Positions 12,665 to 40,295 of a DNA stretch of 64,000 nucleotides are shown here, piece after piece (position 1 is the first letter of the stretch; every line of letters starts with the position of its first letter). The stretch comes from Gemmatimonadota bacterium. GTDB lineage: Bacteria > Latescibacterota > UBA2968 > UBA8231. The stretch is from positions 62,001 through 126,000 of the forward strand of contig JABJJN010000003.1 in NCBI GenBank assembly GCA_018660835.1. The letters are read 5' to 3'. The notes below the pieces were generated by a model, which was not told the DNA's origin, did no database searches, and worked only from the letters and a program-made list of their open reading frames with translations. The position numbers and the translations under genes were made by a program.

Positions 12665-14254
12665 ATGACGGACGAGCCAGAGCGCCACGAATTGCTCGAA
12701 GAAGTGCGTGCTTTGCGGCGCGAGCTCGCCGAAACGCATCCTGCGTCGGCGGAGGGCAAGGTGCGCTTCCAGTCAGTCGTGGACAATGTCATCGATGGCA
12801 TCATCACCATTGACGAAGAGGGCATCATTGAGTCCTTCAATCCCGCAGCGGCGCGGATATTTGGTTACGACAGCAGCGAGGTGATCGGCAAACCCGTTCA
12901 GGTGTTGATGCCCGAACCTTATGCCACTGAGCACGATGGCTACATGCACAGCTACAAGGAAACCGGACATCGTCGCATCATCGGGATTGGTCGAGAAGTC
13001 CGTGGGCGTCGAAAAGATGGCCATGAGTTCCCTATGGATCTGTCGGTTGGTGAATTCCGCGAGGACGGCGTGCGCAAGTTCACCGGCGTAGTCCGTGACG
13101 TCACGGAGCGGAAACACCTGGAACTGCAGCTACTGCAAGCGCAGAAAATGGAATCCGTCGGACAATTGGCAGGAGGCGTTGCCCACGACTTCAACAATCA
13201 GCTGGGCATCCTCCTGTTTGACGTGGATCTGCTCCTGGCCCGCGTCGAAGAGGTGTCTATTCGCGAGGATCTGAAGAAGATTCGCAAGACCGTTTTGCGC
13301 GCCGCCGACCTTACGCGGCAACTGCTCGTATTCAGTCGACGGCAGCGGATGGAGCCTCAACCTGTCGATCTCAATCACCATGTTGGCGAACTACGCAAAA
13401 TGATGGGGCGTTTGCTGGGCGAAAACATCGATGTCGTACTGCAGTTGGACGACCAGGTGTGTATCGTCAGTGCAGATCCCGGCAACCTCGATCAGGTGCT
13501 GATTAACCTGTGCGTCAACGCCAGGGACGCGATGCCGGATGGCGGCGTCCTGACCATCGAGACACGCCACGTCGTAGTAACCCAGGGTGACAAGGCACAA
13601 GGCGGCGAACCTGGCTCATACTGCCTTCTGGCGGTGCATGACAGTGGCCATGGGATGGAACAAGATGTGCAGGAGCGCGTCTTCGAACCCTTCTTCACGA
13701 CAAAGGAAGCGGGCAAAGGCACGGGCCTGGGACTGTCTGTCGTGTATGGAATCGTCGAAGCGCATGGGGGGTGGCTCAAAGTCGACAGCACGCCCGATGA
13801 AGGCTCCTGTTTCGAGATCTATCTGCCCACTGGCGAGGGTATAGCGGCAGCAGGCAAACCAAGTGAAGCAGATGAAGAGGAAGCTGGAGGGCAAGGCGAA
13901 TACGTGTTGCTCGTCGAGGACGATCCAGAATTGCGAATTCGAATGGAGCAAGTCCTGAGCGGAGCCGGATATCGAGTCACAGCATGTGGGGACCTGTCTG
14001 GCGCCCGCCGCGAGCACGGAGGAGCACGCTTCGACCTTCTCGTAAGTGACTTGGTCCTGCCAGATGGCCGCGGTACCGATCTGGCCTTCGAGTTGATGGA
14101 GCGATCACCCGGGATGCGGTCGATTATCGTTACGGGCCACACAGATGACAGCATCGACTGGGAAGAAGCACGCCGTCGCAGTATCCCCATCCTGCACAAA
14201 CCGCTGGGGATGTCCGAACTGCTTGAGCAGGCCCGGCTACAGCTCGACAGCTGA
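12665..14254 (+). CDS. FixL-like PAS hybrid histidine kinase with receiver domain
   Basis: This 529-residue protein lacks membrane segments and is probably cytoplasmic. An N-terminal coiled coil (1-30) leads to a PAS domain (about 33-150) very close in motif to oxygen-sensing FixL. It has LMPEPY, His90 in EHDGY at the haem-ligand position, and Arg110 in IIGIGR at the FixL oxygen-binding arginine position. The kinase core follows: His174 (GGVAHDFNN), N-box NLCVNARDAM, DSGHGM, FEPFFTTK and GKGTGLGLS. The C-terminal receiver (413-529) has acidic residues 418-420, phospho-acceptor Asp462, Thr490 and Lys512. Haem binding is an inference from the two residues. No partner DNA-binding regulator is adjacent in the same transcript. 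Confidence 0.9.
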   Translation: MTDEPERHELLEEVRALRRELAETHPASAEGKVRFQSVVDNVIDGIITIDEEGIIESFNPAAARIFGYDSSEVIGKPVQVLMPEPYATEHDGYMHSYKETGHRRIIGIGREVRGRRKDGHEFPMDLSVGEFREDGVRKFTGVVRDVTERKHLELQLLQAQKMESVGQLAGGVAHDFNNQLGILLFDVDLLLARVEEVSIREDLKKIRKTVLRAADLTRQLLVFSRRQRMEPQPVDLNHHVGELRKMMGRLLGENIDVVLQLDDQVCIVSADPGNLDQVLINLCVNARDAMPDGGVLTIETRHVVVTQGDKAQGGEPGSYCLLAVHDSGHGMEQDVQERVFEPFFTTKEAGKGTGLGLSVVYGIVEAHGGWLKVDSTPDEGSCFEIYLPTGEGIAAAGKPSEADEEEAGGQGEYVLLVEDDPELRIRMEQVLSGAGYRVTACGDLSGARREHGGARFDLLVSDLVLPDGRGTDLAFELMERSPGMRSIIVTGHTDDSIDWEEARRRSIPILHKPLGMSELLEQARLQLDS

Positions 14255-14394
14255 ACAAGCGCCGCAGGCGTCCTGCCTGCTTCCGGGGCAGCCACGTCTC
14301 ACCCCGCCAGCATACTGTCCCACCCACGTCCCGCTCGACGTGTAATCGCGACACAGCTGTCACAGTCGACAGACGGTCTCAAGTGGTCACACTC

Positions 14395-14410
14395 TGGCAT
14401 GGAGATTGCG
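14395..14410 (+). promoter_or_regulatory. Predicted sigma-54 (-24/-12) promoter
   Basis: TGGCATGGAGATTGCG matches the sigma-54 consensus TGGCACG-N4-TTGCW, with C6 changed to T and the final W changed to G. Spacing is exact. The predicted start of transcription is near 14421, just before a strong ribosome site (GGAGGTGA, 14425-14432) for the PilZ gene at 14438. Half-sites TGTCCCA (14316-14322) and CGTCCCG (14327-14333) lie about 90-105 bases upstream of the start, where an activator might bind. Confidence 0.7.
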
Positions 14411-14437
14411 TTTCCGTATGTATCGGAGGTGATCGTC

Positions 14438-15379
14438 ATGGGACTCCCCCAGAAGATTGACACAGGAACCCAACCAACAGCCAATCAGATGGCAGTCTTC
14501 GGACAGGCTCGATGGATCAGTCTTGCCTGGGTATTTGGGGTTGTGACAGCAGTCCAGGCGTTAGACCGCGACGGCATGTGGCGGCAGATGGGCAGCACGG
14601 TCCGCTCAGATGAGAAGGCAGATGTCACATGGTTCCTCGCCGCCTTTGCGGCTCTGGTCATCGTCGTCTTCTTCGTGACGCGTCTGGTAGAACATCAACA
14701 CCAGCGGCGTGCTGTATCAGGTGGGCGCAGCAAGTTGCGGCGGACATTTTCACAGCAGGCAGGTGCGATGGGTTTTCGTCCTGTGGAGATCTCCAATTTG
14801 AGACGTATCGCCAGCCGCTTGTCTGGCGGCAGCGATCCACTGAATGTGCTCAGCACGAACAGTGGTCGTCAGTTTCTGACAGCGGATCTACGCAAGCGCA
14901 TCCGCCGACGAGAGCGGGAGATCGAAATGCTCGATCACATCCTGCAGAAACTCGGCACCGCTGGTCGCGGCTTCCATGAACGCGCTGGCATCAGAGTTGA
15001 GACGGACATCTCCATCTGGCTCGTCCACAGGGGTGAGGACAACCAGGGCGCTGACGACGAAATCGTCATCGACATCGCCCCCATCGCCGCTCGTCTCTTC
15101 GATTTGAGTGAGGCAGGAGCAGCGATCTGCGCCAACACCGAATTGAGCCCAGGGGATATCGTCGAATTCTGGTCAGGCGATCCTCAGTACTGGATTCCAC
15201 CGACGCAGTCGGGTGTCGTGAGTGTTCGTCCAACTAAGGACGGCACGAGAAATATTGGCCTGCACTTTCTGGATCCCCCACGAACTGAGATTCGACGTGT
15301 GATCCAGGAAATCCAGCGCCACGAACGAGAGGACTTGGACCAGATACTCCACGCTCCGGAAAGCCCGACCGACTCTTGA
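14438..15379 (+). CDS. Membrane protein with C-terminal PilZ (c-di-GMP-binding) domain
   Basis: This 313-residue protein has two membrane segments (about 20-42 and 63-82), a basic and coiled-coil cytoplasmic linker, and a C-terminal PilZ domain. The PilZ signature is complete: RxxxR as RAGIR at 182-186 and DxSxxG as DLSEAG at 222-227. It is therefore a likely c-di-GMP receptor. ATG 14438 has a GGAGGTGA ribosome site five bases upstream. An in-frame ATG at 14399 falls inside the -24/-12 promoter and is rejected. The stop overlaps the TTG start of the kinase gene (TTGA). The three-gene operon links c-di-GMP to a sigma-54 regulatory system. Confidence 0.82.
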   Translation: MGLPQKIDTGTQPTANQMAVFGQARWISLAWVFGVVTAVQALDRDGMWRQMGSTVRSDEKADVTWFLAAFAALVIVVFFVTRLVEHQHQRRAVSGGRSKLRRTFSQQAGAMGFRPVEISNLRRIASRLSGGSDPLNVLSTNSGRQFLTADLRKRIRRREREIEMLDHILQKLGTAGRGFHERAGIRVETDISIWLVHRGEDNQGADDEIVIDIAPIAARLFDLSEAGAAICANTELSPGDIVEFWSGDPQYWIPPTQSGVVSVRPTKDGTRNIGLHFLDPPRTEIRRVIQEIQRHEREDLDQILHAPESPTDS

Positions 15380-16497
15380 ATCTGAGCACCAAAATTTCGC
15401 TGAGTGTGAGCCTGATCGTCGTGGCGATTCTGGCCGTTGGTAACTGGCTCATCTGGGAGCGTCTTGACAGTTGGGCACTGCAGCGCGCTCACCTGCTTCT
15501 GGCTGCCTGGACGATGGGAGGTGTGGCCTTTGCAGTTTACTTTGCCGTCCGCCATCTGACTCGCCCCCTGCGCGACCTGACGAATCTGGCACAGGCTCTT
15601 GGGGAAGGACATCTCGATCGCCGACTTCAGTTCAGTAGCGATGACGAAATCGGCCAGCTGGCCCAGGCTTTTGATCGAATGGCGACGTCCCTGTCCTCGG
15701 CGCAGGACGCACTGGGACAGGAGGTCCAGGAACGCACCGATGAGCTCGAGCAGTCGCAGCGCCAGCTACAGCAGGCGGCACGACTGGCAGCCGTCGGCGA
15801 ACTGGCAGCGGGTGTGGCTCATGAAATCAACAATCCAGCGAGCACGATTCTCATTCGCGCGGGACAGTTGAGTGAATCGCCGGTGATTCAGGAAGGTCCC
15901 GGTCAGTTGGAAGAGGATCTGAGTGTGATCAGACGGCAGATCGAGAAGATCAGCTCCATCGTTTCTGGTCTACTGACCTTTTCCAGACAATCGACGGCGT
16001 CAGGGACGATGACGCCTCTGAATGTGAACGATGTTGTGAAACGTTCAGCAGAATTGACGACGGGGTTGTTTGAAAGTCGTAAAGTTGAGATAGCCCTTGA
16101 TTTGACCGACGACCTGCCCGCAGTGATCGCCGACAGCCCTCGAGTCGAGCAGGTAATGCTCAACCTGGTGAACAATGCCGTGGATGCCATGCCCGACGGA
16201 GGAAGACTTACCTTTGGGTCGGCTCGTGGTGAGGGAGAGTTTGAAGACTTCGTGGCAGCCTATGTGGAGGATACGGGAATCGGCATGGACTCTGACCATC
16301 TCGAGCGTGTATTCGATCCGTTTTTTACCACCAAAGAGCCCAATCAAGGCACGGGTCTGGGACTGTCGGTGAGTTATGGAATCGCACAAGATCACGGCGG
16401 ACACCTGGTTGCATCCAGTGTGCCCGATAAGGGTTCTCGCTTTACGTTGTATTTAGCCGGTTCCCAGGGCGAATCATCCGCCGCATCGGACGCTTAA
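15376..16497 (+). CDS. HAMP-domain sensor histidine kinase (NtrB/ZraS type)
   Basis: This 373-residue membrane kinase has two membrane helices at about 7-27 and 40-60 with only about a dozen residues between them, so it has almost no periplasmic sensor. HAMP covers about 59-112, followed by a coiled coil. The catalytic core has His149 (GVAHEINNPAS), N-box NLVNNAVDAM, DTGIGM, FDPFFTTK and GTGLGLS. The TTG at 15376 overlaps the stop of the PilZ gene. The NtrC-type regulator follows after 16 bases and is its likely partner. With no obvious sensor of its own, it may take its input from the PilZ membrane protein. Confidence 0.88.
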   Translation: MNLSTKISLSVSLIVVAILAVGNWLIWERLDSWALQRAHLLLAAWTMGGVAFAVYFAVRHLTRPLRDLTNLAQALGEGHLDRRLQFSSDDEIGQLAQAFDRMATSLSSAQDALGQEVQERTDELEQSQRQLQQAARLAAVGELAAGVAHEINNPASTILIRAGQLSESPVIQEGPGQLEEDLSVIRRQIEKISSIVSGLLTFSRQSTASGTMTPLNVNDVVKRSAELTTGLFESRKVEIALDLTDDLPAVIADSPRVEQVMLNLVNNAVDAMPDGGRLTFGSARGEGEFEDFVAAYVEDTGIGMDSDHLERVFDPFFTTKEPNQGTGLGLSVSYGIAQDHGGHLVASSVPDKGSRFTLYLAGSQGESSAASDA

Positions 16498-16513: not shown

Positions 16514-17923
16514 ATGCCCGAACGAATTCTCGTCGTCGATGACGAGGTCGATCTTGCCACCAGTTGCACGCGCCTGCTCGAAAGCCGCGGCTATGGAACA
16601 GGCATCGCCTGCAGCGCGGAAGAAGCACTGGAAATACTGGCTGCACAGGAATTCCAGCTTGTCGTAACGGATTTGAAGATGCCGGGTATAGGCGGCATGG
16701 AATTGCTGCGGCAGGTCCGCGAAGGGGCTGCTGAGATTCCCGTCATCATGATGACTGCCTACAGCACTGTGGAGGATGCGGTTGAGGCCATGCGCTTGGG
16801 CGCAGCGGACTTTGTCCCCAAGCCGTTCTCGCCCGATCACTTGCTCATCGTGATTGAAAAGGCACTCGAAAAGCGCTCCCTGCGACAGGAGAACCAGAGT
16901 CTACGCGATCAGCTGAGTCGCCACTACAGTTTCGACAATATCATCGGCAAGAGTGCGTCCATGGCGCAGATCTTCGAGTCCATCAAGAAGATATCCGGTA
17001 CAGATATTTCGGTCCTGATCTCGGGGGCCAGTGGTACGGGCAAGGAGTTGATCGCCAGATCGATTCACGCCAATAGCAAACGTGCGACGAAGCCCTTCGT
17101 GCCTATCAACTGTGGCGCCCTGCCCGAGAACCTGGTGGAGAGTGAGATCTTTGGCTACGAGCGGGGTGCCTTCACCGGTGCGGCGAAACCAAAACCGGGA
17201 CTCCTGGAAGAGGCCCATGGAGGCACGTTCTTCCTGGACGAGATCGGTGAATTGCCCCTTGCTCTACAGGTGAAATTCCTGCGCGTGCTCGAAGATGGAC
17301 GTTTCCGGCGTCTGGGCAGCAATCAGGAACGCGAGGTCGATGTGCGACTTGTGTGTGCAACCAATCGCAATCTTGAACAAGTCGTCGAGGAAGGCGACTT
17401 CCGCGAAGACCTCTTCTACCGCATCAACACGTTTCCCATCCACCTGCCTCCCTTACGGGAGCGGCGTGATGACATCGCTTTGCTCGCCGATCACTATCTG
17501 CAGGTCTATGCCGACAAGAACGGTATGGAAGCGGCGACCATATCGCCTGAGGCGATGGATCTGTTGATTGGATATGAGTGGCGTGGCAATGTGCGTGAAT
17601 TGCAGAATGTCATCGAGCGGGCGCTGGTGTTGGCGAGTAACAACATCGTGATGCCCGAAGATCTGCCTCCTAGTGTGAAGAAGTCCGACAACGCGCCCGC
17701 GGGAGAGCATCCCGAATTCTATCTCGATCTGCCCTTCAAGGACGCCAAGGAGCACCTCATCGAGGACTTCGAAAAGCGCTACATCGTCGAAGTACTCAAG
17801 ACCTTCGGCGGTAACATCTCGCGCTCTGCGGATCATAGTGGAATCGATCGACGTTCGCTGCATCGATTGTTGTCCAAGTACCACATCGATGCTCACCAGG
17901 TTGCAGCCGACGAGCAGGACTGA
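16514..17923 (+). CDS. NtrC-family sigma-54-dependent response regulator
   Basis: Transcription activator for sigma-54 RNA polymerase, 469 residues. The receiver (1-120) has acidic VVDDE and phospho-acceptor Asp53 (VTDLKMPG). The AAA+ domain (about 140-370) has Walker A Lys177 in GASGTGKE, the sigma-54 loop GAFTGA near 218-223 and Walker B FFLDEIGE. A Fis-type helix-turn-helix lies at the C-terminus (NISRSADHSGIDRRSLHRLL). It ends the operon with the PilZ protein and kinase. A -24/-12 promoter before the operon suggests autoregulation. It might also act on the sigma-54 promoters near 39-40 kb, but nothing in the sequence proves this. Confidence 0.94.
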   Translation: MPERILVVDDEVDLATSCTRLLESRGYGTGIACSAEEALEILAAQEFQLVVTDLKMPGIGGMELLRQVREGAAEIPVIMMTAYSTVEDAVEAMRLGAADFVPKPFSPDHLLIVIEKALEKRSLRQENQSLRDQLSRHYSFDNIIGKSASMAQIFESIKKISGTDISVLISGASGTGKELIARSIHANSKRATKPFVPINCGALPENLVESEIFGYERGAFTGAAKPKPGLLEEAHGGTFFLDEIGELPLALQVKFLRVLEDGRFRRLGSNQEREVDVRLVCATNRNLEQVVEEGDFREDLFYRINTFPIHLPPLRERRDDIALLADHYLQVYADKNGMEAATISPEAMDLLIGYEWRGNVRELQNVIERALVLASNNIVMPEDLPPSVKKSDNAPAGEHPEFYLDLPFKDAKEHLIEDFEKRYIVEVLKTFGGNISRSADHSGIDRRSLHRLLSKYHIDAHQVAADEQD

Positions 17924-27763: not shown

Positions 27764-27909
27764 TGGATTCTCCACAGGGAAAATCTACCCGACTCCCTCG
27801 CGATAGGCAACAATCTCGCTCAATGGGTAACAGGTTCGTCATGTGCCCCAGTGGGGCAGTGCAAGCACATGAGCGGGACATCTATGTCTCCATTTGATTG
27901 CCAGAAGGC

Positions 27910-27943: not shown

Positions 27944-28061
27944 CTTGCCCAGAGTGATCTGAGTGAGGTCGCGGTGGTACGGATCATGCTCAGTCCATAG
28001 AGGTGAATGTCGTCACGCTTCGTGCGACATGGCGTGTGAGATGGACGAAAGAGGGGATGTC

Positions 28062-28925
28062 GTGGCAACCGCATACGAGACGGGCTCAAGCAGGCTTGGC
28101 AATTCCGCAGTATTGAACTCCTACTGGCATGATATCAGGCACTGTGCCCCTGTGTCCCGCGAGGAGGAAGTCAGGCTTGTGCGGCGGGCACGTGAGGGCG
28201 ACGAAGAGGCCCTCGCCGGGCTCATTTCTGCCAATCTGCGTTTTGTCGTATCTGTGGCGAAGGAGTTCCGTGCCACGGGCCAGCCACTCAATGAACTGAT
28301 TTCGGACGGGAATGTGGGGCTGCTGGAAGCTGCCCGTCGCTTTGACGAGCGACGTGGATTCAAGTTCATCACCTACGCCGTCTGGTGGATCCGCCAGTCC
28401 ATCCGCCGCGCATTGGCCGAGAGACGTCGGACAGTATGCGCACCGTCCAATCGCGTCGCGGATCTAAAAGATGTCGAGCGCGCTCAAATCCGCTTGTCTC
28501 AATCTCTGGGTCGCGATCCATCCCTCTTTGAGATCTGCGATGATGTCGGCTACAGCATGCAGCGGGTTCTACGGGCTATGGAGGTTTCGTCACCAGATGT
28601 CCATCTCGATCGTCCTTTGTATGCCGATGAAGACGATACGAATGTCAGTGCTCTGTTTGAGGCTGATGGACCACCACCGGAAACGCAGGCGGAAGAACAC
28701 GAATTTGTCGACACGATCGACCAGTGCCTGCAGATACTGGACACACGCGAGCGCGAGATTATCCGCCGCTACTACGGGTTTGATGGCTGTTTGCCGATGA
28801 CACTTGAACAGATTGGCGGCACCCTGGGGCTGACCCGTGAGCGTATTCGTCAACTTCGTGATCGCGGCCTGGCCAAATTGCGCCGAGAACACGAAGACGT
28901 ATTGGTGGAACTGTCCCACAACTGA
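28062..28925 (+). CDS. RpoD/SigA-type sigma-70 family factor (short, group 2/3)
   Basis: RNA polymerase sigma factor of 287 residues from GTG 28062, which has AGAGGGG six bases upstream. In-frame ATGs at 28029 and 28041 are alternatives. Region 1.2 is present (SYWHDIRHCAPVSREEEVRL), then region 2 (NLRFVVSVAKEF, GLLEAARRFDERRGFKFITY, WWIRQSIRRAL), region 3 and region 4.2 (TLEQIGGTLGLTRERIRQLR). Region 1.1 is absent and the protein is far shorter than a housekeeping RpoD, so it is probably an alternative RpoD-like factor. A terminator follows. It sits alone between the copper-type and arsenic clusters. Confidence 0.92.
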   Translation: MATAYETGSSRLGNSAVLNSYWHDIRHCAPVSREEEVRLVRRAREGDEEALAGLISANLRFVVSVAKEFRATGQPLNELISDGNVGLLEAARRFDERRGFKFITYAVWWIRQSIRRALAERRRTVCAPSNRVADLKDVERAQIRLSQSLGRDPSLFEICDDVGYSMQRVLRAMEVSSPDVHLDRPLYADEDDTNVSALFEADGPPPETQAEEHEFVDTIDQCLQILDTREREIIRRYYGFDGCLPMTLEQIGGTLGLTRERIRQLRDRGLAKLRREHEDVLVELSHN

Positions 28926-31921: not shown

Positions 31922-33640
31922 TCAGCTCAGTCCGGACAGCTCTCCGTGTTCATCGATGTCGATCCCCATGAACGCCGGCACAGAAGGGAGTCCGGGCATC
32001 GTCATGATGTCACCACACAGCGCATACAGGAAACCAGCTCCCGCCGACAGACGCACATCCCGTACTGGCACTGTAAAGCCAGTCGGTGCCCCCTTGAGGG
32101 TGGGATCATGAGAGAGTGATGCCGGGGTCTTGGCCATGATCACTGGCAGCTTGCCGAATCCGAGTCGACGATATTCATCCATCCTGTCCCGTGCGAGATC
32201 TGTGAACTCGACGCCATCGGCGCCATACACCTGCGTCGCCAGGGTCTTCATCTTTTCTTCAATCGGGGCATCCAACTCGTACAGATAGCCGAAGTTGTTG
32301 TCCGCGGCGCATGCTTCCACCACGGCCTCTGCCAGGTCCGAACCACCTTGTCCACCATGCGCCCACACGTCGGAGATCGCCACATCACGAGCCCCGGCTT
32401 CGATGGCGGCCTCCTTTACGAAATCGATCTCTGCATCCGTGTCCTCAGGAAAACGGTTGATCGCCACAACGGCAGGCACCCCAAAGCGACCAACGATCCC
32501 AAGATGCGCCGCAAGATTCGCCATCCCCGCTTGCAGGAAAGGCATCTGTTCGTCTACCGGAGGTCGCTTACTGCGGCGCGTCGGTAAGCCACCATGTTCT
32601 TTGAGTGCCTTCACCGTGGCGACGATGACGGCGCAATCTGGTTGTAGTCCGGACGTCCGGCATTTGATGTGAACGAATTTCTCGAAGCCACAATCAGAGC
32701 CAAAGCCAGCTTCCGTGACCAGATATCCATCGCCGAGGAGATTCAGGGCAATACGATCAGCGATAACAGAGCTGTTGCCGTGAGCGATGTTGGCGAAGGG
32801 CCCGGCGTGAACCAGCACGGGTGTGCCTTCCAGTGTCTGCATCAGCGTTGGCATGATCGCATCGCGCAACAGGGCCGCCATGGCGCCGGCCACACCCAGA
32901 TCTTCAGCCGTCACGGGCTGGTCGCTGCGATTGAAACCAACAACGATGCGTCCGAGACGCTCGCGTAGATCGGCTCGACCTGTCGTCAAGGCAAGAATCG
33001 CCATCACTTCTGAAGCGGCGGTGATGTCATAGCCAGACGAACGTTCGGTCTCGTCTTGCGCCAGGGTGATACTGCGTAAGGCTCGATCATTGATGTCGAC
33101 GACCCGACGAAAGGTCACCTGCTCCGGATCGATATCGAGTCGACGCAGACCTGCACGCTCGAGTCGTGCGTCGCTCAGGCGTGCTTCATGATACAGTCTC
33201 GAGTCGACAGCAGCGGCGAGCAGATTGTGGGCGGCACTGACGGCGTGAATGTCACCCGTCAGATGCAGATTCAGATCGACCATGGGCACGACCTGCGCGT
33301 ATCCCCCCCCTGCAGCGCCACCTTTCAGGCCGAAGGTTGGTCCTTGTGAGGGTTGGCGCAGGGCAGCGACGGAAGGATGCCCGAGCGTAGCGATCGCCTG
33401 CGCAAGTCCGACGGTGGTCACCGTCTTGCCCTCGCCCTGTTTGGTTGGCGTCATCGCTGTGACGATGACATAGCGCGGCGTTCCGGGCTTTGCATCCCGC
33501 TTGAGAACATCCAGATGCACCTTGGCCTTGTGGCGGCCATAGAGGTCGAGGTCATCCTCGGCCAGGCCGATGTCGGCAGCAACATCGACAATAGGGCGCA
33601 GAACGGCGGCGTTGGCGATCTCCAGATCAGTCTTCGCCAT
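31922..33640 (-). CDS. fhs: Formate-tetrahydrofolate ligase
   Basis: Cytoplasmic enzyme interconverting formate, THF and ATP with 10-formyl-THF, ADP and phosphate. From ATG 33640 it has 572 residues, close to the usual 556-580. The ATP loop TPTKQGEGKTV, GLKGGAAGGGYAQV, HAGPFANIAHGNSS and the C-terminal MTMPGLPSVP are all present. It is the last gene of the leftward corrinoid/C1 operon. In this setting it could run in either direction: releasing formate with ATP gain, or supplying C1 units. The intermediate enzyme FolD is not encoded in the window. Confidence 0.95.
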   Translation of the reverse strand: MAKTDLEIANAAVLRPIVDVAADIGLAEDDLDLYGRHKAKVHLDVLKRDAKPGTPRYVIVTAMTPTKQGEGKTVTTVGLAQAIATLGHPSVAALRQPSQGPTFGLKGGAAGGGYAQVVPMVDLNLHLTGDIHAVSAAHNLLAAAVDSRLYHEARLSDARLERAGLRRLDIDPEQVTFRRVVDINDRALRSITLAQDETERSSGYDITAASEVMAILALTTGRADLRERLGRIVVGFNRSDQPVTAEDLGVAGAMAALLRDAIMPTLMQTLEGTPVLVHAGPFANIAHGNSSVIADRIALNLLGDGYLVTEAGFGSDCGFEKFVHIKCRTSGLQPDCAVIVATVKALKEHGGLPTRRSKRPPVDEQMPFLQAGMANLAAHLGIVGRFGVPAVVAINRFPEDTDAEIDFVKEAAIEAGARDVAISDVWAHGGQGGSDLAEAVVEACAADNNFGYLYELDAPIEEKMKTLATQVYGADGVEFTDLARDRMDEYRRLGFGKLPVIMAKTPASLSHDPTLKGAPTGFTVPVRDVRLSAGAGFLYALCGDIMTMPGLPSVPAFMGIDIDEHGELSGLS

Positions 33641-33653
33641 CAGGTCTTCACCA

Positions 33654-34826
33654 TCAGACAAGCACCGGTGCTTTGACGAGGGCGGGATTGATGGGAAGAT
33701 CTCCCCAGGCTTCTACCATATCGCTAATGCGCTCCAGTCGGGAAATGAGGGCATCGGGCATCACATTGTCGGCGACGCCCAGAATGAAGGCGTCCCCAGG
33801 CGCGATCGTTGTGAAAACCCCGGCCATGTATTGCTCGAAATCTGCTTCCGAGAACGTTGGCTCGAGGATCACTGATGGGATGCCCCCCCAGATGATGACA
33901 TTGCTACCCCAGGCGTCGCGCGCCTGTTGAAGCGTACACGAAACCTGCGGTTCGGTTGTAAAGGTCTCCGCCATATCAAATCCGGCATCGCGCATGTGGC
34001 CGAGAATCAAGCGCGAGTCGTTGTCAGCATGAGTGCACAGCGTCTTGCCACAATGGTGCAGTTGCGCCGACAGATCCTGGTAGTACGGTGTGATGTAGCG
34101 TTCGAACAGGGGTGGTGGCGTCAGATTTGAGTCAAAATGCAATCCGTGCAACAACAGGCGAGCAGGCGAGGAAACCAGAAGGGGCCAGACACGTTCACGC
34201 TCGATCTCCTCCATGCGTCGCAGATGTGCTTCGACCTTTTCAGGACAGTCGGCGAGCAGATAGAAGGCATTCTGGTAACCGGCCTGTTTCTGCAGGAAAT
34301 GGTGGAATGGCACATCCCCGACCTGAACAAGAGGATAACCGTCGTCGCCGATCTGTGCCTCATAGGCTAGATACTCGTCGTATGTCGCCTCATACGACTG
34401 GTTTTCGATCAGATAGGCGACAACATCAATGTCCGCGGGCTCTTTGATCATGTGTTCAACCTCAAGAGCCTGAATCCCGGCGTCTGCCAGCACACTCGAA
34501 CTGCGTTGGCGGGTCGTCACGGTACCGACTGGCGTGCGAGTTTCAGTGAGGACAGAATCCCCCTGCTGATGTTCACGAATCTCTACGTCACCACCCTGAT
34601 GGGTACGGAAGACGTGCCCATCGCGCGCCGGCGTCCCCATACACAGTTGCTTTTCGAGTTCGCGTAGCGTGAGACCTGCGTAGCGCTCGGGCATGGTACC
34701 GCGATTGACTTGCGCCGTGTACCACAGCAGCAAACGCGGGATCCAGGGGACTCGATCAGGGCGCTGGTGATCCATGACCGCCAGCAAGCGCTGACGATGA
34801 GTCATCGTCGTCATCATATTCTGCAT
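33654..34826 (-). CDS. URO-D-family methyltransferase-like protein (paralogue of 42813-43994)
   Basis: This 390-residue protein of the uroporphyrinogen decarboxylase superfamily includes MtaA-type cobalamin methyltransferases. The N-terminal THRQRLLAVMDHQRPDRVPW and C-terminal WGGIPSVIL and ILGVADNVMPDA mark the subfamily. A possible metal site is HCGKTLCTHADND. No haem-pathway genes surround it, so a decarboxylase role is unlikely. It lies between the AcsE-MetF-MetV fusion and fhs, which suggests methyl transfer to or from the corrinoid protein. Several clustered ATGs make the exact start uncertain. The third URO-D gene at 42813 shares its motifs. Confidence 0.82.
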   Translation of the reverse strand: MQNMMTTMTHRQRLLAVMDHQRPDRVPWIPRLLLWYTAQVNRGTMPERYAGLTLRELEKQLCMGTPARDGHVFRTHQGGDVEIREHQQGDSVLTETRTPVGTVTTRQRSSSVLADAGIQALEVEHMIKEPADIDVVAYLIENQSYEATYDEYLAYEAQIGDDGYPLVQVGDVPFHHFLQKQAGYQNAFYLLADCPEKVEAHLRRMEEIERERVWPLLVSSPARLLLHGLHFDSNLTPPPLFERYITPYYQDLSAQLHHCGKTLCTHADNDSRLILGHMRDAGFDMAETFTTEPQVSCTLQQARDAWGSNVIIWGGIPSVILEPTFSEADFEQYMAGVFTTIAPGDAFILGVADNVMPDALISRLERISDMVEAWGDLPINPALVKAPVLV

Positions 34827-34901
34827 CACGACTGTGGTGTTCCGTCCGGCATCGGTCAGATTCCCTTCCTCACCCCGACGTCATTGGCGAGGGGGCAGGC
34901 C

Positions 34902-37508
34902 CTAGCGAGGTGGCATGGCTTCAACGGGAGGCAACCCTAGATCCAGTGGCTGCGGGCAAAGGCCTTCGATTTCATTGCGCCATGACGACGTATGTACAAG
35001 CGTGGGATCCTTGGGTGGCTGCAGCGAGAACAGAGCCTCCACACGATCCGTTGCGAGAGTTGCCTCCATTACCCGCCCCCAATAGCAGCGGCGCTCCGGG
35101 ATCACTTCGCAACCTCCCTGCAAGTCTGCGCCGGCGCAGGGCCCATTCAGGAGTCGCTTGGCGCAACCGGCGGTCGGTTCGGGACACAGATAGGCCAGAT
35201 CGGGGATGCGGCAGTCTCCGCACATTTCGCAACCGAGTTTGGAACTCTTTGTCCCCTGCTCAAAGAGTGTCGCCCAGCGCTGACGCCGGCCCTCTGGATC
35301 ACCACCAACCATCCATCGCAGTGCACCATTGAGTCCTTTGCCCTGCTCGAAATAACGTGCGTGCAGCGCCTGCATCTGTGGATCAACGGGTTCGTAGTCA
35401 GAACGATCCCCACGAACGAGGGGCCCATCGCTGCGCAGCAGACCATCGTCCTGATGTTCGAAGAGATAGAAGGGATCTGCCGTCGGCGCCATTTGCATGG
35501 GGCGGGAACCGTCAGCGTCTCGATACTCTTCCCATGACTCAAGCCAGTCGCGCCCGGACAGACTTGCCAATTCGTCCCGTACGGCACGAGCGTCATCCAA
35601 CTTCGTGATGCCCGCCAAATCAATACCGCGAAACGAAAGTCCCTCCAACAGAATGTGACTGAGCAAGGCCGCTCGGCGCACGGCCTGTCGATGCTGGTGC
35701 TCGGCGAGTTCACTGAAGTTCATCTTACGCAACGCGCGCAACTCTTCCCGTGCCCCAAGCTTGCCCTGGTACTTCTTTTTTAACTCATCGGGAACGACTG
35801 CACCCGCCACGTGCACACGATTCAGAACGCGCAGGAACTGTGGTGTCAGGAAGTAGACCATAGGGAACACAGGCATGTCCTGAATTCCCGCGCGTGTCAT
35901 CCACAGCTTCAATTCCTGAAACTTTGCCACGTCGTAGCCGAGTTGCGTGATGAGGTAATCGGCGCCGGCGCCGCGCTTCTTCCACACCTTCATATACTGG
36001 CCCCAGGTATCGGCTTCGGAGTATTTGAAGGGAGAGACGGCGGAGCCAATGCGCAGATCTTCGAGGGCACCCCCTGCACGTGGCAACAGATCAGGAAACT
36101 CGAGACCGCGACGCAGTGTATCGAGTGCCATGGCCAGATTGACAGCATCCAGATCGAAGATCGGCTTGCCACCTGTCGTATAGTCGCCGGTGACTGCGAA
36201 GAAGTGATGCAGACCCTGGTGGTAGAGAGCCAGGGCGCGGCGGATCAACGCATTCCGATCATCACTCTTGCAGGACAGGTTCACGATCGGCTGACGACCA
36301 CTGAGTCGCGCAATCTCAAGGGCCAGTGTGTCCGGACCGGGTGTGCGCTGACCTCCTGGTGTATCGGTGATGGTGAAGACGTAATCTTCGTCCCGCGCCT
36401 CTTCAGCAACTGCGAGGATCTGATCGAGGCCGCCTTCGGAGGGTGCCAGTTCGAGGATGAACACGGGGTCACCCTGCGGATCCTGCAATGCCCGGCCGAA
36501 GGGATCATCGAATTCCTGCACACGTTTGGGTGCCGCTGGTGCGCGTCGCTGTGACTGGGCGTAGTCAACGAGCAGCGTCAGCGCATCGACGGATGCACCT
36601 GAGCCCGCCGCAGCCCCGGCATCCGTGCCAGTGGCGATCGTACGGATCAACTTGAGAATTCGCCCATCCACCAGATCAGCCCCCGAGATCTGGCCAACAT
36701 CACAGATCGCCGCATCAACACCATATTCCATCGCGACACGTAGATAGGCGCGATTGATGGCGAGTCGACGTGGCAGGCCATCGGAACAATTCGACAGACC
36801 GAGCACGACATGGGCACCGGCCATCGCATCGTCCTCGCGGATCATGCGAATGCCCTCGAAGGTTCGCTTCGTATACCCCACCATGTCGGCGCCAAGAGGA
36901 CCTACGGTGGGATCGAAATACACTTCATTCGCCGCAATGCCTGCCTCGCGAGCGGCGACAAAGATCTGCCGTGCCGTTTCATGGTAGACGTCAGCATCGG
37001 CGATATCCGTAAACCCCGTTGCTGCCTCATCGCCCGCTTTCTCCAGCAGCATGCCCACCACGGCGAAAGGGAACTCCCGACGTAGTTGAAGTGCTTCGAG
37101 CCGATTGACTGTGACAGAGTTTACGAGCGGGACACGGGGGTTGGGGTCATCGGTGTGATCGTGATAGTGACGCAGGCCATATTCGAGCATCGATGGATCC
37201 GAAGAATCGATGCAGGGCGGTACGCCACCCCCCAGCAGGACGATGAGTTCGATGATGTGCGCCAGGACCTGCTGCGCGCCATCGTGACCAATCCCCTCGA
37301 TGGTGAAAAAGTCGTCCACGTTGACATCGAGAAAGCTGGCGCCAGAAGCAACCTGTTCAGTGACCAGTTTCCGCAGATGCCGATCACCAGCGAGGCGATC
37401 GATCCCATCCCCTGTCAACCAGCGCTGCGCCGATGTGCGCACACCGGGGATGTGACAGTGGAGACTCTCTGCAATGCGGATGAGCGATGGGTCGGCGGGC
37501 GAGCTCAT
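34902..37508 (-). CDS. AcsE-like / MetF / MetV-like triple fusion protein
   Basis: This 868-residue protein starts at ATG 37508 (GGAAGAG upstream). Residues about 1-290 resemble the pterin-binding methyl-THF:corrinoid methyltransferase AcsE/MeTr (FLDVNVDD, PPCIDSSDP, VPLVNSVTV, EVYFDPTVGPLG, GLSNCSDGLP). Residues about 345-640 are a MetF methylene-THF reductase (FILELAPSEGG, TDTPGGQRTPG, FFAVTGDY, ITQLGYD). Residues about 750-830 match the MetV-type C-terminus, with eight cysteines at 760, 763, 766, 775, 782, 791, 800 and 808. In acetogens these are separate proteins (AcsE and MetVF). The fusion would take a methyl group from corrinoid to THF and oxidise it to methylene-THF. The electron acceptor is unknown. 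Confidence 0.88.
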   Translation of the reverse strand: MSSPADPSLIRIAESLHCHIPGVRTSAQRWLTGDGIDRLAGDRHLRKLVTEQVASGASFLDVNVDDFFTIEGIGHDGAQQVLAHIIELIVLLGGGVPPCIDSSDPSMLEYGLRHYHDHTDDPNPRVPLVNSVTVNRLEALQLRREFPFAVVGMLLEKAGDEAATGFTDIADADVYHETARQIFVAAREAGIAANEVYFDPTVGPLGADMVGYTKRTFEGIRMIREDDAMAGAHVVLGLSNCSDGLPRRLAINRAYLRVAMEYGVDAAICDVGQISGADLVDGRILKLIRTIATGTDAGAAAGSGASVDALTLLVDYAQSQRRAPAAPKRVQEFDDPFGRALQDPQGDPVFILELAPSEGGLDQILAVAEEARDEDYVFTITDTPGGQRTPGPDTLALEIARLSGRQPIVNLSCKSDDRNALIRRALALYHQGLHHFFAVTGDYTTGGKPIFDLDAVNLAMALDTLRRGLEFPDLLPRAGGALEDLRIGSAVSPFKYSEADTWGQYMKVWKKRGAGADYLITQLGYDVAKFQELKLWMTRAGIQDMPVFPMVYFLTPQFLRVLNRVHVAGAVVPDELKKKYQGKLGAREELRALRKMNFSELAEHQHRQAVRRAALLSHILLEGLSFRGIDLAGITKLDDARAVRDELASLSGRDWLESWEEYRDADGSRPMQMAPTADPFYLFEHQDDGLLRSDGPLVRGDRSDYEPVDPQMQALHARYFEQGKGLNGALRWMVGGDPEGRRQRWATLFEQGTKSSKLGCEMCGDCRIPDLAYLCPEPTAGCAKRLLNGPCAGADLQGGCEVIPERRCYWGRVMEATLATDRVEALFSLQPPKDPTLVHTSSWRNEIEGLCPQPLDLGLPPVEAMPPR

Positions 37509-37527
37509 CGATTTATCTCTTCCTGGT

Positions 37528-38289
37528 CTAGGAGGTGGACATGGTGTGCATGGGTTCGATCTGGATGATGCCTTCGTCGTAGCTGGGGACGACCGTTGCA
37601 CCGGGCTCGACGATGAGGTAGTCCTGTTCGGGCCATGGACCGTCGAGCCAGCGCTGAAACAGCGTGAGATCGCCCTCTATTTCCTGATACTCCCAGCCAC
37701 GATCAGCGCAGATCTTCATAGCGGTCTGTTTGACTGGCAGGTGGCGTGAGAAGTCGAAATCGATGAAAACACCCCGTTTGTAGTGAGCGGTCCATCCCTC
37801 CATCACTTCGATCAGATAGCGGGCATTCTCCTCGCCGTATTGTTCGACGAGCTTGTCGTACTCCATCTGCGTACCCAGTCCGGCGCCTTGTTTGCGCTCC
37901 GGACGCTCACCACCTCGCTCGCGATGCTCAAGCCAACCGGTTGTGAAATAGTAGGTACCCGGATTGTCGAGAAAGAACTCTGAGTAACGCTCCTTGGACC
38001 CCAGAAAAAATGTGATGCAATCATGGGCACGAGGGATGATCAGTTGCGTATCAGCTGGTGCACGCAAGCCGTTGAGCATGTTGTTACACAACCCATACCC
38101 CACGAGGATCGCGTCGTACTTACCGGGCTCGATTGCATCGAGGCTCTCCTGAATCCGATCGATCCCAACCAGGGGATTGTCATGATACCCCTGGCTGAGA
38201 TACTCGAAATCGAACAGATTCGGCGATCGAGCTGCACAATGGCAGATCTCGCGGAAGGAGACCTCGCAAGCGAGGATTTTCAGAAACAC
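37528..38289 (-). CDS. DUF1638-family protein
   Basis: This 253-residue cytoplasmic protein carries the DUF1638 hallmarks: ILACEV at the N-terminus, GYGLCNNMLNGL, IIPRAHDCITFFLGSKERY and YYFTTGWLEH. The conserved Cys and His residues could bind a metal or cofactor. The family is typically found beside corrinoid proteins and methyltransferases. It lies two bases after the corrinoid gene here. Its role is unknown; helping reactivate or load the corrinoid is one guess. Confidence 0.85.
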   Translation of the reverse strand: MFLKILACEVSFREICHCAARSPNLFDFEYLSQGYHDNPLVGIDRIQESLDAIEPGKYDAILVGYGLCNNMLNGLRAPADTQLIIPRAHDCITFFLGSKERYSEFFLDNPGTYYFTTGWLEHRERGGERPERKQGAGLGTQMEYDKLVEQYGEENARYLIEVMEGWTAHYKRGVFIDFDFSRHLPVKQTAMKICADRGWEYQEIEGDLTLFQRWLDGPWPEQDYLIVEPGATVVPSYDEGIIQIEPMHTMSTS

Positions 38290-38291
38290 TC

Positions 38292-38936
38292 TTAGTTGCT
38301 CAGCTGGTCTATGAGCTCCCGTGCCTGGTCAGCTGCACTGGCTGCGTCGGCGGCATAGGCATCGGCCCCGATTTGGTCCGCATACGCCTGAGTGACGGGC
38401 GCGCCGCCCACCATCGTGCGCACATCATCGGTGATTCCCGCCTCCTTGATCGCTTCGACGGTGGCCTTCATAGATGGCATCGTCGTTGTCAGCAGAGCAG
38501 ACATGCACACAATCTGGACTCCCTGCTCACGAACAGACTCGAGAAAGCGCTCTGGTGGCACATCGATTCCCAGATCGACGATCTGGAAACCGGCGCCCTC
38601 GAGCATCATCGCCACGAGATTCTTGCCGATATCGTGCAGGTCACCCTTCACCGTGCCAATGGCGGCAATTCCGGCAGGTTCAACCTTCTCCTCGATGAGT
38701 TGTGGCCTGATAAGTTGCATTCCTGCCTTCATCGCTCGAGCGGCGATGAGCACCTCAGGGATGTAGAACTCGTTATTCTTGAACTTGGCACCGACAACAT
38801 TCATTCCGGCGATCAGACCCTCATGGAGGATTTCACGCACCGGAACTCCCTCGTCGAGAGCTTGTTGAACGCCCTCCTCGACCTCGGATGCCTGCCCCTT
38901 GATCAGGCTCTGAGCGACCTGCTGTAAGTCTGCCAT
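38292..38936 (-). CDS. Corrinoid (B12-binding) methyl-carrier protein
   Basis: This 214-residue protein of the MtaC/MtbC/MttC type shuttles a methyl group on cobalamin. An N-terminal helical cap (about 1-85, NNEFYIPEVLIAARAMKAGM) is followed by a B12-binding Rossmann domain with the DxHxxG motif GTVKGDLHDIGKN, in which the His is the lower cobalt ligand, plus MSALLTTTMPSM and VGGAPV. ATG 38936 is preferred; upstream in-frame sequence covers a predicted -24/-12 promoter (39025-39040). It is the central carrier of the operon. Confidence 0.94.
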   Translation of the reverse strand: MADLQQVAQSLIKGQASEVEEGVQQALDEGVPVREILHEGLIAGMNVVGAKFKNNEFYIPEVLIAARAMKAGMQLIRPQLIEEKVEPAGIAAIGTVKGDLHDIGKNLVAMMLEGAGFQIVDLGIDVPPERFLESVREQGVQIVCMSALLTTTMPSMKATVEAIKEAGITDDVRTMVGGAPVTQAYADQIGADAYAADAASAADQARELIDQLSN

Positions 38937-39024
38937 GATAATCCGTCTTCCATCGAATGAGATGAAGGGAAACCGCTTGGGAGTCGACGCCTCGATCTGA
39001 CAACCGAGCGCTCTGTTATGACTC

Positions 39025-39040
39025 TGCAATCCGGGTGCCA
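39025..39040 (-). promoter_or_regulatory. Predicted sigma-54 promoter of the corrinoid gene
   Basis: On the minus strand TGGCACCCGGATTGCA matches TGGCACG-N4-TTGCW with a single change (G7 to C) and exact spacing. Transcription would start near 39014, leaving a leader of about 78 bases before ATG 38936. Two palindromes lie about 74-126 bases upstream. Confidence 0.75.
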
Positions 39041-39087
39041 CGGTGGCAGCGACTGTGGGGACGCCTTATCTGGGGGATTCAGGCCGC

Positions 39088-39140
39088 TCATGGGACATGT
39101 TTGTCCCATGATCAGCACAGACCGGGACGACACCGTCCCG
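39088..39140. promoter_or_regulatory. Two palindromes at enhancer (UAS) distance from a sigma-54 promoter
   Basis: Palindrome 1 is a perfect 10-bp repeat (TCATGGGACA-TGTT-TGTCCCATGA, 39088-39111). Palindrome 2 is a perfect 7-bp repeat (CGGGACG-ACAC-CGTCCCG, 39123-39140). Both share the core GGGAC(A/G)-N4-(T/C)GTCCC. Their centres are 32 bp apart, about three helical turns. A further GGGACA half-site is at 39143-39148. Position and phasing suit tandem binding by an NtrC-type activator. RNA hairpins are an alternative reading. Confidence 0.65.
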
Positions 39141-39167
39141 ACGGGACACCAACGACACGGATCATTC

Positions 39168-40205
39168 TCACCCCAGTTCGAGACCTGCTGCGTAGAGGGC
39201 GACGACATTCTCGGGGGGACTCACAGACTGGATATTATGGCAGGGAGCCAGAATGTATCTGCCATTGGCCCCGAGAGTTCGCAGATTTTCACCAACCTCT
39301 GTCCGCACATCCTCCGGCGTACCGAAGGGCAAGGTCTGCTGATTGTCGACACCGCCGTGGAAGACAAGCTGGTCACCAAAATCCCTGCGCAACTGCTCGC
39401 GCTCCATACCCGGGCATCGCCACTGGATCGGATTCAGTACATCCATGCCCAGAGCGATCATGTCGGGCAGGACATCGCGTATGGCGCCATCAGAGTGAAA
39501 GAAGACGAAGGCCCCCGCCTCGTGCGCCAGATCCACCATGCGTTTCATCCGCGGCAACAGAAATCGGCGGATATGCTCGAGACTGAACATGAGACTCTCC
39601 TGACTACCCAGGTCTTCGGCGACGTAACTGATGTTGACCTGCCCCGGCAGCGACTCGTAGATCCGTGTTGAGTTCTCTCGAGCAAGATCGAACAGATGAT
39701 CGAGGCAATAGTCGACGATGTCTGGATGTTCGATCATATCGATGAAGGCTTGTTCCTGGCCACGCAGCTGTTTGTAGAGCAGGAATGGTTCGGACCCACC
39801 GCCACGGATGGGATACGCCTCCCACCCTCGAATCTGCCCGGGTAGTACGCTGTAGTCCCACCAGTCAGGGTGGGGCCAGTGATAGTTCGCCTCTATCTCT
39901 TCGACACTGTCGTAGGTGGCCAACGGATGATACACGGTCTCCGAGTAGACGCCGCCGCCATAGTCGACCAATTCTGCACGACAACCGTAGATGTCGTAAC
40001 CGATCTCAGGGGCGGGACCGACGTAGCGCGGTGTGACACTGAAGGGGCGATCGATACTCAATCTCTCCAGCATCTGCCGATCATCGCTGACGGCCAGATG
40101 GGCCTTCAATTTGTCTGTCGCTTCAGCAGTCGCCCAATAGTCCATGGGTATTCGGTCAGGCTTCTCTCCAGACAACACTGCAAGCCAACGTTCTTTGGGG
40201 GTCAT
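39168..40205 (-). CDS. URO-D-family methyltransferase-like protein (operon leader gene)
   Basis: This 345-residue protein starts at ATG 40205 with AGGAGAG seven bases upstream. It starts with the URO-D/MtaA pattern MTPKERWLAVLSGEKPDRIP. The C-terminal half has HSDGAIRDVLPDMIALGMDV, HGGVDNQQTLPFGTPEDV and ILAPCHNIQ, a probable metal site including His and Cys. It is more distant from the two other URO-D proteins here than they are from each other. As the first gene after a near-perfect sigma-54 promoter, and directly before the corrinoid gene, it is the best candidate for the substrate-specific methyltransferase. The methyl donor cannot be read from sequence. Confidence 0.85.
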   Translation of the reverse strand: MTPKERWLAVLSGEKPDRIPMDYWATAEATDKLKAHLAVSDDRQMLERLSIDRPFSVTPRYVGPAPEIGYDIYGCRAELVDYGGGVYSETVYHPLATYDSVEEIEANYHWPHPDWWDYSVLPGQIRGWEAYPIRGGGSEPFLLYKQLRGQEQAFIDMIEHPDIVDYCLDHLFDLARENSTRIYESLPGQVNISYVAEDLGSQESLMFSLEHIRRFLLPRMKRMVDLAHEAGAFVFFHSDGAIRDVLPDMIALGMDVLNPIQWRCPGMEREQLRRDFGDQLVFHGGVDNQQTLPFGTPEDVRTEVGENLRTLGANGRYILAPCHNIQSVSPPENVVALYAAGLELG

Positions 40206-40238: not shown

Positions 40239-40254
40239 TGCAACCACCGTGCCA
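40239..40254 (-). promoter_or_regulatory. Predicted sigma-54 promoter of the corrinoid/C1 operon
   Basis: On the minus strand TGGCACGGTGGTTGCA is a perfect match to TGGCACG-N4-TTGCW. Transcription is predicted near 40228, 23 bases before ATG 40205 of the first operon gene. The -24 box forms an inverted repeat with the -24 box of the divergent promoter at 40280. Confidence 0.85.
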
Positions 40255-40278: not shown

Positions 40279-40295
40279 TTGGCACGGAAGTTGTT
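40279..40295 (+). promoter_or_regulatory. Predicted divergent sigma-54 promoter of the MFS transporter gene
   Basis: TTGGCACGGAAGTTGTT has a perfect -24 box and a -12 box with one change (TTGT for TTGC), at the right spacing. Transcription would start near 40306. This leaves the purine-rich ribosome site at 40327-40343 in the leader and favours a GTG start at 40345 or 40351. Confidence 0.75.

Follow-up and report, generated by a model that had tools for sequence, protein, structure and literature searches.

Paired palindromes above a predicted sigma-54 promoter of a corrinoid protein gene and the NtrC-type activator that probably acts on them

In the 64,000-nucleotide stretch of DNA that was analysed (the window), the gene for a corrinoid protein is preceded by a -24/-12 element and two perfect palindromes, and the evidence supports the prediction that these palindromes are conserved sites of a sigma-54 activator. 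The reading that we favour, with a probability of about 0.72, is that an NtrC-type activator encoded at 16514-17923, in relay with a FixL-type kinase, starts transcription of the corrinoid and methyl-tetrahydrofolate genes at low oxygen by way of the palindromes.

The corrinoid promoter and its operon

The elements of the promoter region and the genes around it are as follows:

39025..39040 (-): -24/-12 sigma-54 promoter of the corrinoid gene, TGGCACCCGGATTGCA, one mismatch to TGGCACG-N4-TTGCW
39089..39110 (-): predicted proximal enhancer palindrome, 22 bp, CATGGGACA-TGTT-TGTCCCATG, arms of 9, core GGGACAAACATGTCCC
39123..39140 (-): predicted distal enhancer palindrome, CGGGACG-ACAC-CGTCCCG, arms of 7, core GGGACGGTGTCGTCCC, 32 bp above the proximal one
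38292..38936 (-): corrinoid protein gene, B12-binding and B12-binding_2 domains
37528..38289 (-): DUF1638 gene, further down the operon, a neighbour kept in relatives
34902..37601 (-): pterin-binding methyltransferase/MTHFR fusion gene, downstream in the operon
33654..34829 (-): second URO-D family methyltransferase gene, downstream
31922..33661 (-): formate-tetrahydrofolate ligase gene, operon end (identified by its sequence and its orthologues rather than by a domain search)
39168..40205 (-): URO-D family methyltransferase gene, on the upstream side of the gap
40240..40254 (-): second -24/-12 site, TGGCACGGTGGTTGC, before the URO-D gene, without a palindrome
40280..40294 (+): divergent -24/-12-like site, TGGCACGGAAGTTGT, one mismatch, before an MFS transporter gene, without a palindrome

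The GG and GC of TGGCACCCGGATTGCA (39040-39025 on the minus strand) were found to have the spacing required of a -24/-12 element, within the TGGCAC / TTGC pattern, with GG and GC at fixed spacing, by which sigma-54 promoters are recognised, and RpoN is encoded in the genome (Sigma54_DBD at C73, E 1e-62). The exact string TGGCAC-N5-TTGC occurs twice in the window compared to 0.14 expected, the other copy being that before the URO-D gene (40240-40254), and there were 9 matches with at most one mismatch compared to 5.2 expected. The centres of the two palindromes (39099.5 and 39131.5) have a spacing of exactly 32 bp and lie about 86 and 118 bp above an inferred transcription start near 39013. Exact matches to GGGACR-N4-YGTCCC number two in the window (0.03 expected, and none of 100 shuffles contained two) and are found at only three places across all 7.09 Mb of the genome, this and the other genome-wide site counts being the result of pattern matching rather than matrix scoring. 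A first-pass annotation had called both the -24/-12 element with its single mismatch and the pair of perfect GGGAC palindromes 32 bp apart; the former call was correct to the base, and the latter was confirmed in position, spacing, and distance from the start.

That annotation had also remarked on the length of the gap between the URO-D and corrinoid genes. The gap, which runs from the stop codon of the URO-D gene (39168) to the ATG of the corrinoid gene (38936), a start supported by orthologues that align from residue 1, is 231 bp, and the other genes of the operon are separated by 2 bp, by 72 bp, or overlap, so the gap is indeed unusually long. A search of the gap for terminator-like or sigma-70-like sites found none, and the GC-rich hairpin followed by a T-tract that makes an intrinsic terminator is not present at the palindromes.

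Several features of the operon may be recorded here. The corrinoid protein matches its NCBIfam relatives MtgC/MtbC/pyl_corrinoid with scores below the cut-off. The gene at 34902-37601 (-) encodes an unusual 899-residue fusion of a pterin-binding methyltransferase, MTHFR, and an MTHFR C-terminal domain (DUF5981), and the fusion is kept in relatives. An extra gene lies between the corrinoid and DUF1638 genes in relatives (L148:3015-4214, L146:11148-12308, and L149:12898-14058) and is missing in the window. The other flank of the operon in genome G011 (L147:11413-18253) contains genes, named by eye, for a formate-tetrahydrofolate ligase, a CooC-like ATPase, an AcsD-like protein, and a CooS-like CO dehydrogenase, which suggests a branch of the Wood-Ljungdahl pathway. 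The URO-D and MFS -24/-12 sites are divergent with 25 bp between them, are kept in relatives, and have no GGGAC dyad, and a search for a site shared by the URO-D promoters found none. These two sites may be served by another activator, or the palindrome array, 1.1 kb downstream, may act on them at a distance.

Conservation and recurrence of the site

In four genomes of the same family (G005, G008, G011, and G017), a URO-D gene (71-73% identity) is followed by a corrinoid gene (76-82%) across a gap of 170-209 bp, and in G003 the corrinoid gene (78%) lies elsewhere and not behind a URO-D gene. These five corrinoid promoters were picked by orthology alone and not by motif, and TGGCAY-N5-TTGCA was found at the same position before the corrinoid gene in all of them. 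Above this element, the four URO-D-corrinoid gaps contain two or three dyads akin to GGGAC-N6-GTCCC, the best two being 32-33 bp apart in G017, G008, and G011 and 22 bp apart in G005, and G003 keeps TGGCACATCACTTGCA along with two dyads 31 bp apart. The palindrome pair, whose lack upstream of orthologous corrinoid genes had been named as grounds for refutation, is thus kept, with a spacing of 31-33 bp in four of the five relatives and of 22 bp in the fifth. Dinucleotide shuffling gave p values of 0.001-0.003 for each of the five promoters, in tests that are not fully independent because G008, G011, and G017 belong to one genus (as does G014, and counts of genomes are likewise not independent). 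The URO-D and MFS promoters of the same loci, used as an internal control, gave a shuffle p of 1.0 and no dyad. Distant URO-D homologues (Chloroflexi and others) were also tried as a conservation test and were uninformative, having no adjacent corrinoid gene.

The site, in the family form GRGAC-N6-GTCYC, recurs before other -24/-12 promoters, most of which are oxygen-related. The third palindrome in the genome is located 100 bp above the GGGCAC-N5-TTGC of a 2-oxoacid:acceptor oxidoreductase (KOR) gene, and its only close orthologues (G005 and G009) also have paired dyads and promoters, in common with a divergent enolase-superfamily-like gene. A USP-like gene in G008, G011, G014, and G017 is preceded by TGGCATTTGATTTGCT and, above that, by a pair of dyads with a spacing of 20 bp; it is followed, on the contigs that extend far enough, by the gene for pyruvate:ferredoxin oxidoreductase (PFOR), the G014 contig ending first, and the gene divergent from it in G017 is an oxygen-independent HemN-like gene (named from sequence) with a -24/-12 site. 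The ccoI-ccoNO genes (cbb3 oxidase, named from sequence) of G000, G005, and G007 have dyads of the GAGAC-N6-GTCTC type, some of them imperfect, above TGGTAC/TGGTAT -24/-12 elements. The site is also carried by another URO-D methyltransferase gene in G011 and G017, by a porin-like gene in two genomes (a porin has no known tie to oxygen), and by a sigma-70-family gene in three genomes, including the copy in the window:

27875..27890 (+): palindrome GGGACATCTATGTCTC, 100 bp before the -24/-12-like site of the sigma-70-family gene
27975..27990 (+): -24/-12-like site TGGTACGGATCATGCT, before the sigma-70-family gene (ORF 27963-28925)

The G017 counterpart of this gene has two perfect palindromes 32 bp apart, and the dyad and -24/-12 element before 27963-28925 (+) suggest a sigma cascade. 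Across these promoters, the sites lie 35-165 bp above the -24/-12 elements, multiple copies are separated by near-integral helical turns, and the 31-33 bp spacing of pairs recurs at unrelated promoters.

The corrinoid, G009 KOR, and G000/G007 ccoI promoters were found otherwise than through the motif; most of the other promoters were found through it, and their shuffle p values are therefore biased and overstate significance. Raw matches to GDGAC-N5-TGTCCC include many inside genes or without a promoter, and in most genomes their counts were not above those of a reversed-pattern control, so the motif is informative only when it accompanies a -24/-12 element. No site with a promoter was found in the region upstream of the G003 PFOR gene, and in G007 there was a single palindrome-like site (L321:3784) with no promoter.

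Candidate activator and oxygen sensor

The genes and sites of the window that bear on the identity of the regulator are as follows:

12665..14254 (+): predicted oxygen sensor, FixL-type haem PAS, histidine kinase, receiver
14285..14300 (+): palindrome GGGGCAGCCACGTCTC, degenerate with 2 mismatches, predicted to serve in autoregulation
14348..14363 (+): palindrome GCGACACAGCTGTCAC, degenerate with 2 mismatches, predicted to serve in autoregulation
14395..14410 (+): -24/-12 site TGGCATGGAGATTGCG, belonging to the operon of the PilZ, kinase, and activator genes
15376..16497 (+): HAMP histidine kinase, adjoining the activator gene on its upstream side
16514..17923 (+): predicted activator, receiver, AAA+ domain with GAFTGA, Fis-type HTH (SGIDRRSLHRLL)

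The product of 16514-17923 has the receiver, the AAA+ domain with GAFTGA, and the Fis-type HTH of an NtrC-type enhancer-binding protein, and it scores below the AtoC, NtrC, and NtrX equivalog cut-offs (493 of 714, 427 of 559, and 427 of 600 bits, respectively). The site, together with a CGGCATAGAGATTGCT promoter that is conserved, lies between a PAS kinase gene and a HAMP kinase-activator gene pair in G008, G011, and G017; in G005, a palindrome and a -24/-12 element precede the kinase-activator operon, and in G009 a palindrome precedes the corresponding operon. The kinase-activator and corrinoid operons are on the same contig in G011 and G017. It was found that 16514-17923 is the best match of the palindrome-linked activators of G008/G011/G017 (65-66% identity, the next family being at 44%), that it is 77% and 75% identical to the activators of G005 and G009, respectively, and that the recognition helix GIDRRSLHRLL is common to seven members of its family. 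A search of relatives for an NtrC-type gene, proposed at the outset, therefore yielded an activator operon with its own copy of the site and an orthologue in the window. At the activator's own promoter in the window, the only sites are the two degenerate palindromes at 14285 and 14348 (jointly, p 0.02).

The arrangement of dyad and promoter, counted as a dyad whose left half has no more than one mismatch and which is located 40-70 bp before TGGCA-N6-TTGC, was present in 5 of 7 genomes with the activator compared to 1 of 18 without it (Fisher p 0.002; 25 family genomes). In G003 and G014, whose assemblies are 86% and 84% complete, there are promoters with the site and no activator orthologue was detected. 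The genome of the window encodes about 37 activators, and 16514-17923 was assigned to the site by linkage and co-occurrence; no activator gene adjoins the corrinoid operon itself. Comparative genomics thus makes 16514-17923 the most likely activator at the palindromes, and the original proposal of an enhancer bound by an NtrC-type protein is supported, as a prediction, by the rarity of the palindromes, their conservation, and the activator operon that bears the site.

Two other activators were considered and rejected: one at C12:46617, near a -24/-12 element with one TGTCCC, because there is no dyad, and one near palindromes in G005:C641, because the 7942 site has no -24/-12 element up to a distance of 220 bp and those near 6480 are poor. 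In the window, the kinase-activator operon opens with a gene for a PilZ-domain protein (14399-15379, +), and a similar-looking gene follows the activator gene in G011, near which there are also microcompartment-like genes (L274:1-2608; PduL-, EutN-, and PduP-like, named by eye).

The likely activator and a haem-PAS kinase are encoded 21-26 kb from the corrinoid promoter. The best solved relatives of the PAS domain of this kinase (12665-14254) are FixL haem domains (1d06, E 4e-35), followed by DosP, and the residues that we take to be the haem-ligating His and distal Arg of FixL are invariant in 8 of 8 aligned homologues, including activator-linked kinases of another family of the class. Judged by its sequence, the domain appears to be a FixL-type haem PAS with proximal His and distal Arg; the FixL equivalog score is 239 bits compared to a cut-off of 850, and the regulator linked to the kinase is NtrC-type, with no adjacent FixJ (NarL-type) partner. 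No globin domain was found in either kinase (12665-14254 or 15376-16497). In G007, the activator gene adjoins that of a haem-PAS kinase, and beyond them the contig carries ccoI, ccoNO, other genes of the cco type, and hemN, with ccoI-ccoNO about 6-7 kb from the activator and sensor genes and hemN further along. From these comparisons between genomes, we infer that oxygen is the signal and that low oxygen is the activating condition. Neither the wider set of targets nor this kinase, with the signal that it suggests, had been anticipated in the first-pass annotation.

In the mechanism that we propose, the FixL-type haem-PAS hybrid kinase would sense low oxygen and pass phosphate to the activator, either directly or via the HAMP kinase (15376-16497). 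The phosphorylated activator would oligomerise on the phased palindromes, and its AAA+ domain would open sigma-54 polymerase at 39025-39040, giving transcription of the corrinoid protein gene and the downstream methyl-tetrahydrofolate genes independently of the URO-D gene. Methyl transfer by corrinoid proteins needs Co(I), which is destroyed by oxygen, and an internal oxygen-gated promoter would therefore add the corrinoid protein and downstream gene products only when they are workable. PFOR and KOR are oxygen-sensitive and HemN is an oxygen-independent enzyme of the haem pathway, so their co-regulation with the corrinoid genes makes sense.

Alternative explanations and related systems

The palindromes could be enhancer sites of a different sigma-54 activator, with a methylated substrate or the redox state rather than oxygen as the signal. 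The large number of activators in the genome, none of them next to the corrinoid operon, and the site and promoter in G003 and G014 without a detected orthologue of 16514-17923 speak for this explanation; however, the site precedes the orthologous kinase-activator operon in G005, G008, G009, G011, and G017, and its targets include hemN and cbb3 oxidase genes, and we consider it unlikely. Many regulators typically have short-armed perfect dyads as their sites, so the palindromes might also be operators of an unrelated repressor or activator (TetR- or GntR-type) that lie near a -24/-12 element incidentally. The recurrent position 35-165 bp above such elements, the multiple copies at near-integral helical turns, and the presence of the site before the activator operon make this improbable.

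No more than 28 bp separates the URO-D stop codon from the start of the palindromes, and the third genomic copy closely follows a stop codon, as might be expected if the URO-D gene ended in terminators or in hairpins for RNA processing. This interpretation was rejected as very improbable because the palindromes occur at three places only in the genome, have no T-tract or terminator-like structure, and in G003 precede a corrinoid gene without a URO-D gene upstream; the concern that they might be a recurrent gene-end element is thereby answered. Chance resemblance with no regulatory role is the least credible of the explanations: single -24/-12 matches with up to one mismatch are indeed common in the window, but the excess of exact palindromes, the shuffle p values, and the conservation in five genomes are hard to reconcile with it. 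Control by the activator encoded at 16514-17923 is the explanation that we retain.

In the FixL-FixJ system of rhizobia, cbb3 oxidase genes are under low-oxygen control, and the regulator FixJ, which is of the NarL type, acts together with sigma-70 polymerase. The kinase described here resembles FixL in being a haem-PAS histidine kinase with conserved His and Arg and differs in its much lower equivalog score and in its NtrC-type linked regulator. Whether, in this family of uncultured bacteria, an NtrC-type sigma-54 activator stands in the place of FixJ as the partner of a FixL-type haem-PAS kinase, the two forming a low-oxygen master switch that joins corrinoid C1 metabolism, ferredoxin oxidoreductases, microaerobic respiration, and an alternative sigma-70 factor in one regulon, is in our judgement evenly balanced. 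The operon resembles those of the MtaC/MtgC type in that the gene for a corrinoid protein occurs together with tetrahydrofolate genes and with genes for URO-D or MtaA-like methyltransferases, although the corrinoid protein here falls short of the cut-off scores of the named subfamilies.

The closest published system is NmpRSTU of Myxococcus xanthus, in which, according to the part of the report drawn on here, a haem oxygen sensor and a multi-kinase relay control an NtrC-type activator that acts through paired dyads above sigma-54 promoters on its own operon, hemN, and cbb3 oxidase genes (PMC11841059). It differs in having a globin kinase as the sensor instead of a FixL-type PAS, and GCGCA-N5-TGCGC instead of GRGAC-N6-GTCYC as the site, and its regulon, as presented in that same part, concerns oxygen utilisation with no mention of corrinoid or ferredoxin oxidoreductase genes (PMC11841059). 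The sigma-54 regulome of Desulfovibrio vulgaris, including LurR, has NtrC-type activators, pyruvate oxidation genes among its targets, and multiple 16-bp sites above a -24/-12 promoter, whereas the portions of these reports used here describe no haem oxygen sensor (PMC4641369, PMC6456213). The string GGGAC or GTCCC is absent from the main text of both. In the open-access literature, which gives weak evidence of absence, we found no report of a FixL-type sensor linked to an NtrC-type activator or of corrinoid methyltransferases under sigma-54 and oxygen control, and a literature search found little on the regulation of corrinoid methyl-transfer systems outside model organisms.

If this interpretation is correct, it would provide a concrete, testable regulon for uncultured Latescibacterota-like bacteria, in which the predicted activator, the predicted sensor, and the DNA sites are each located to single-base precision. 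It would also mean that FixL-type sensors can drive sigma-54 activators and that a cobalt(I)-dependent pathway is gated by oxygen through an internal sigma-54 promoter.
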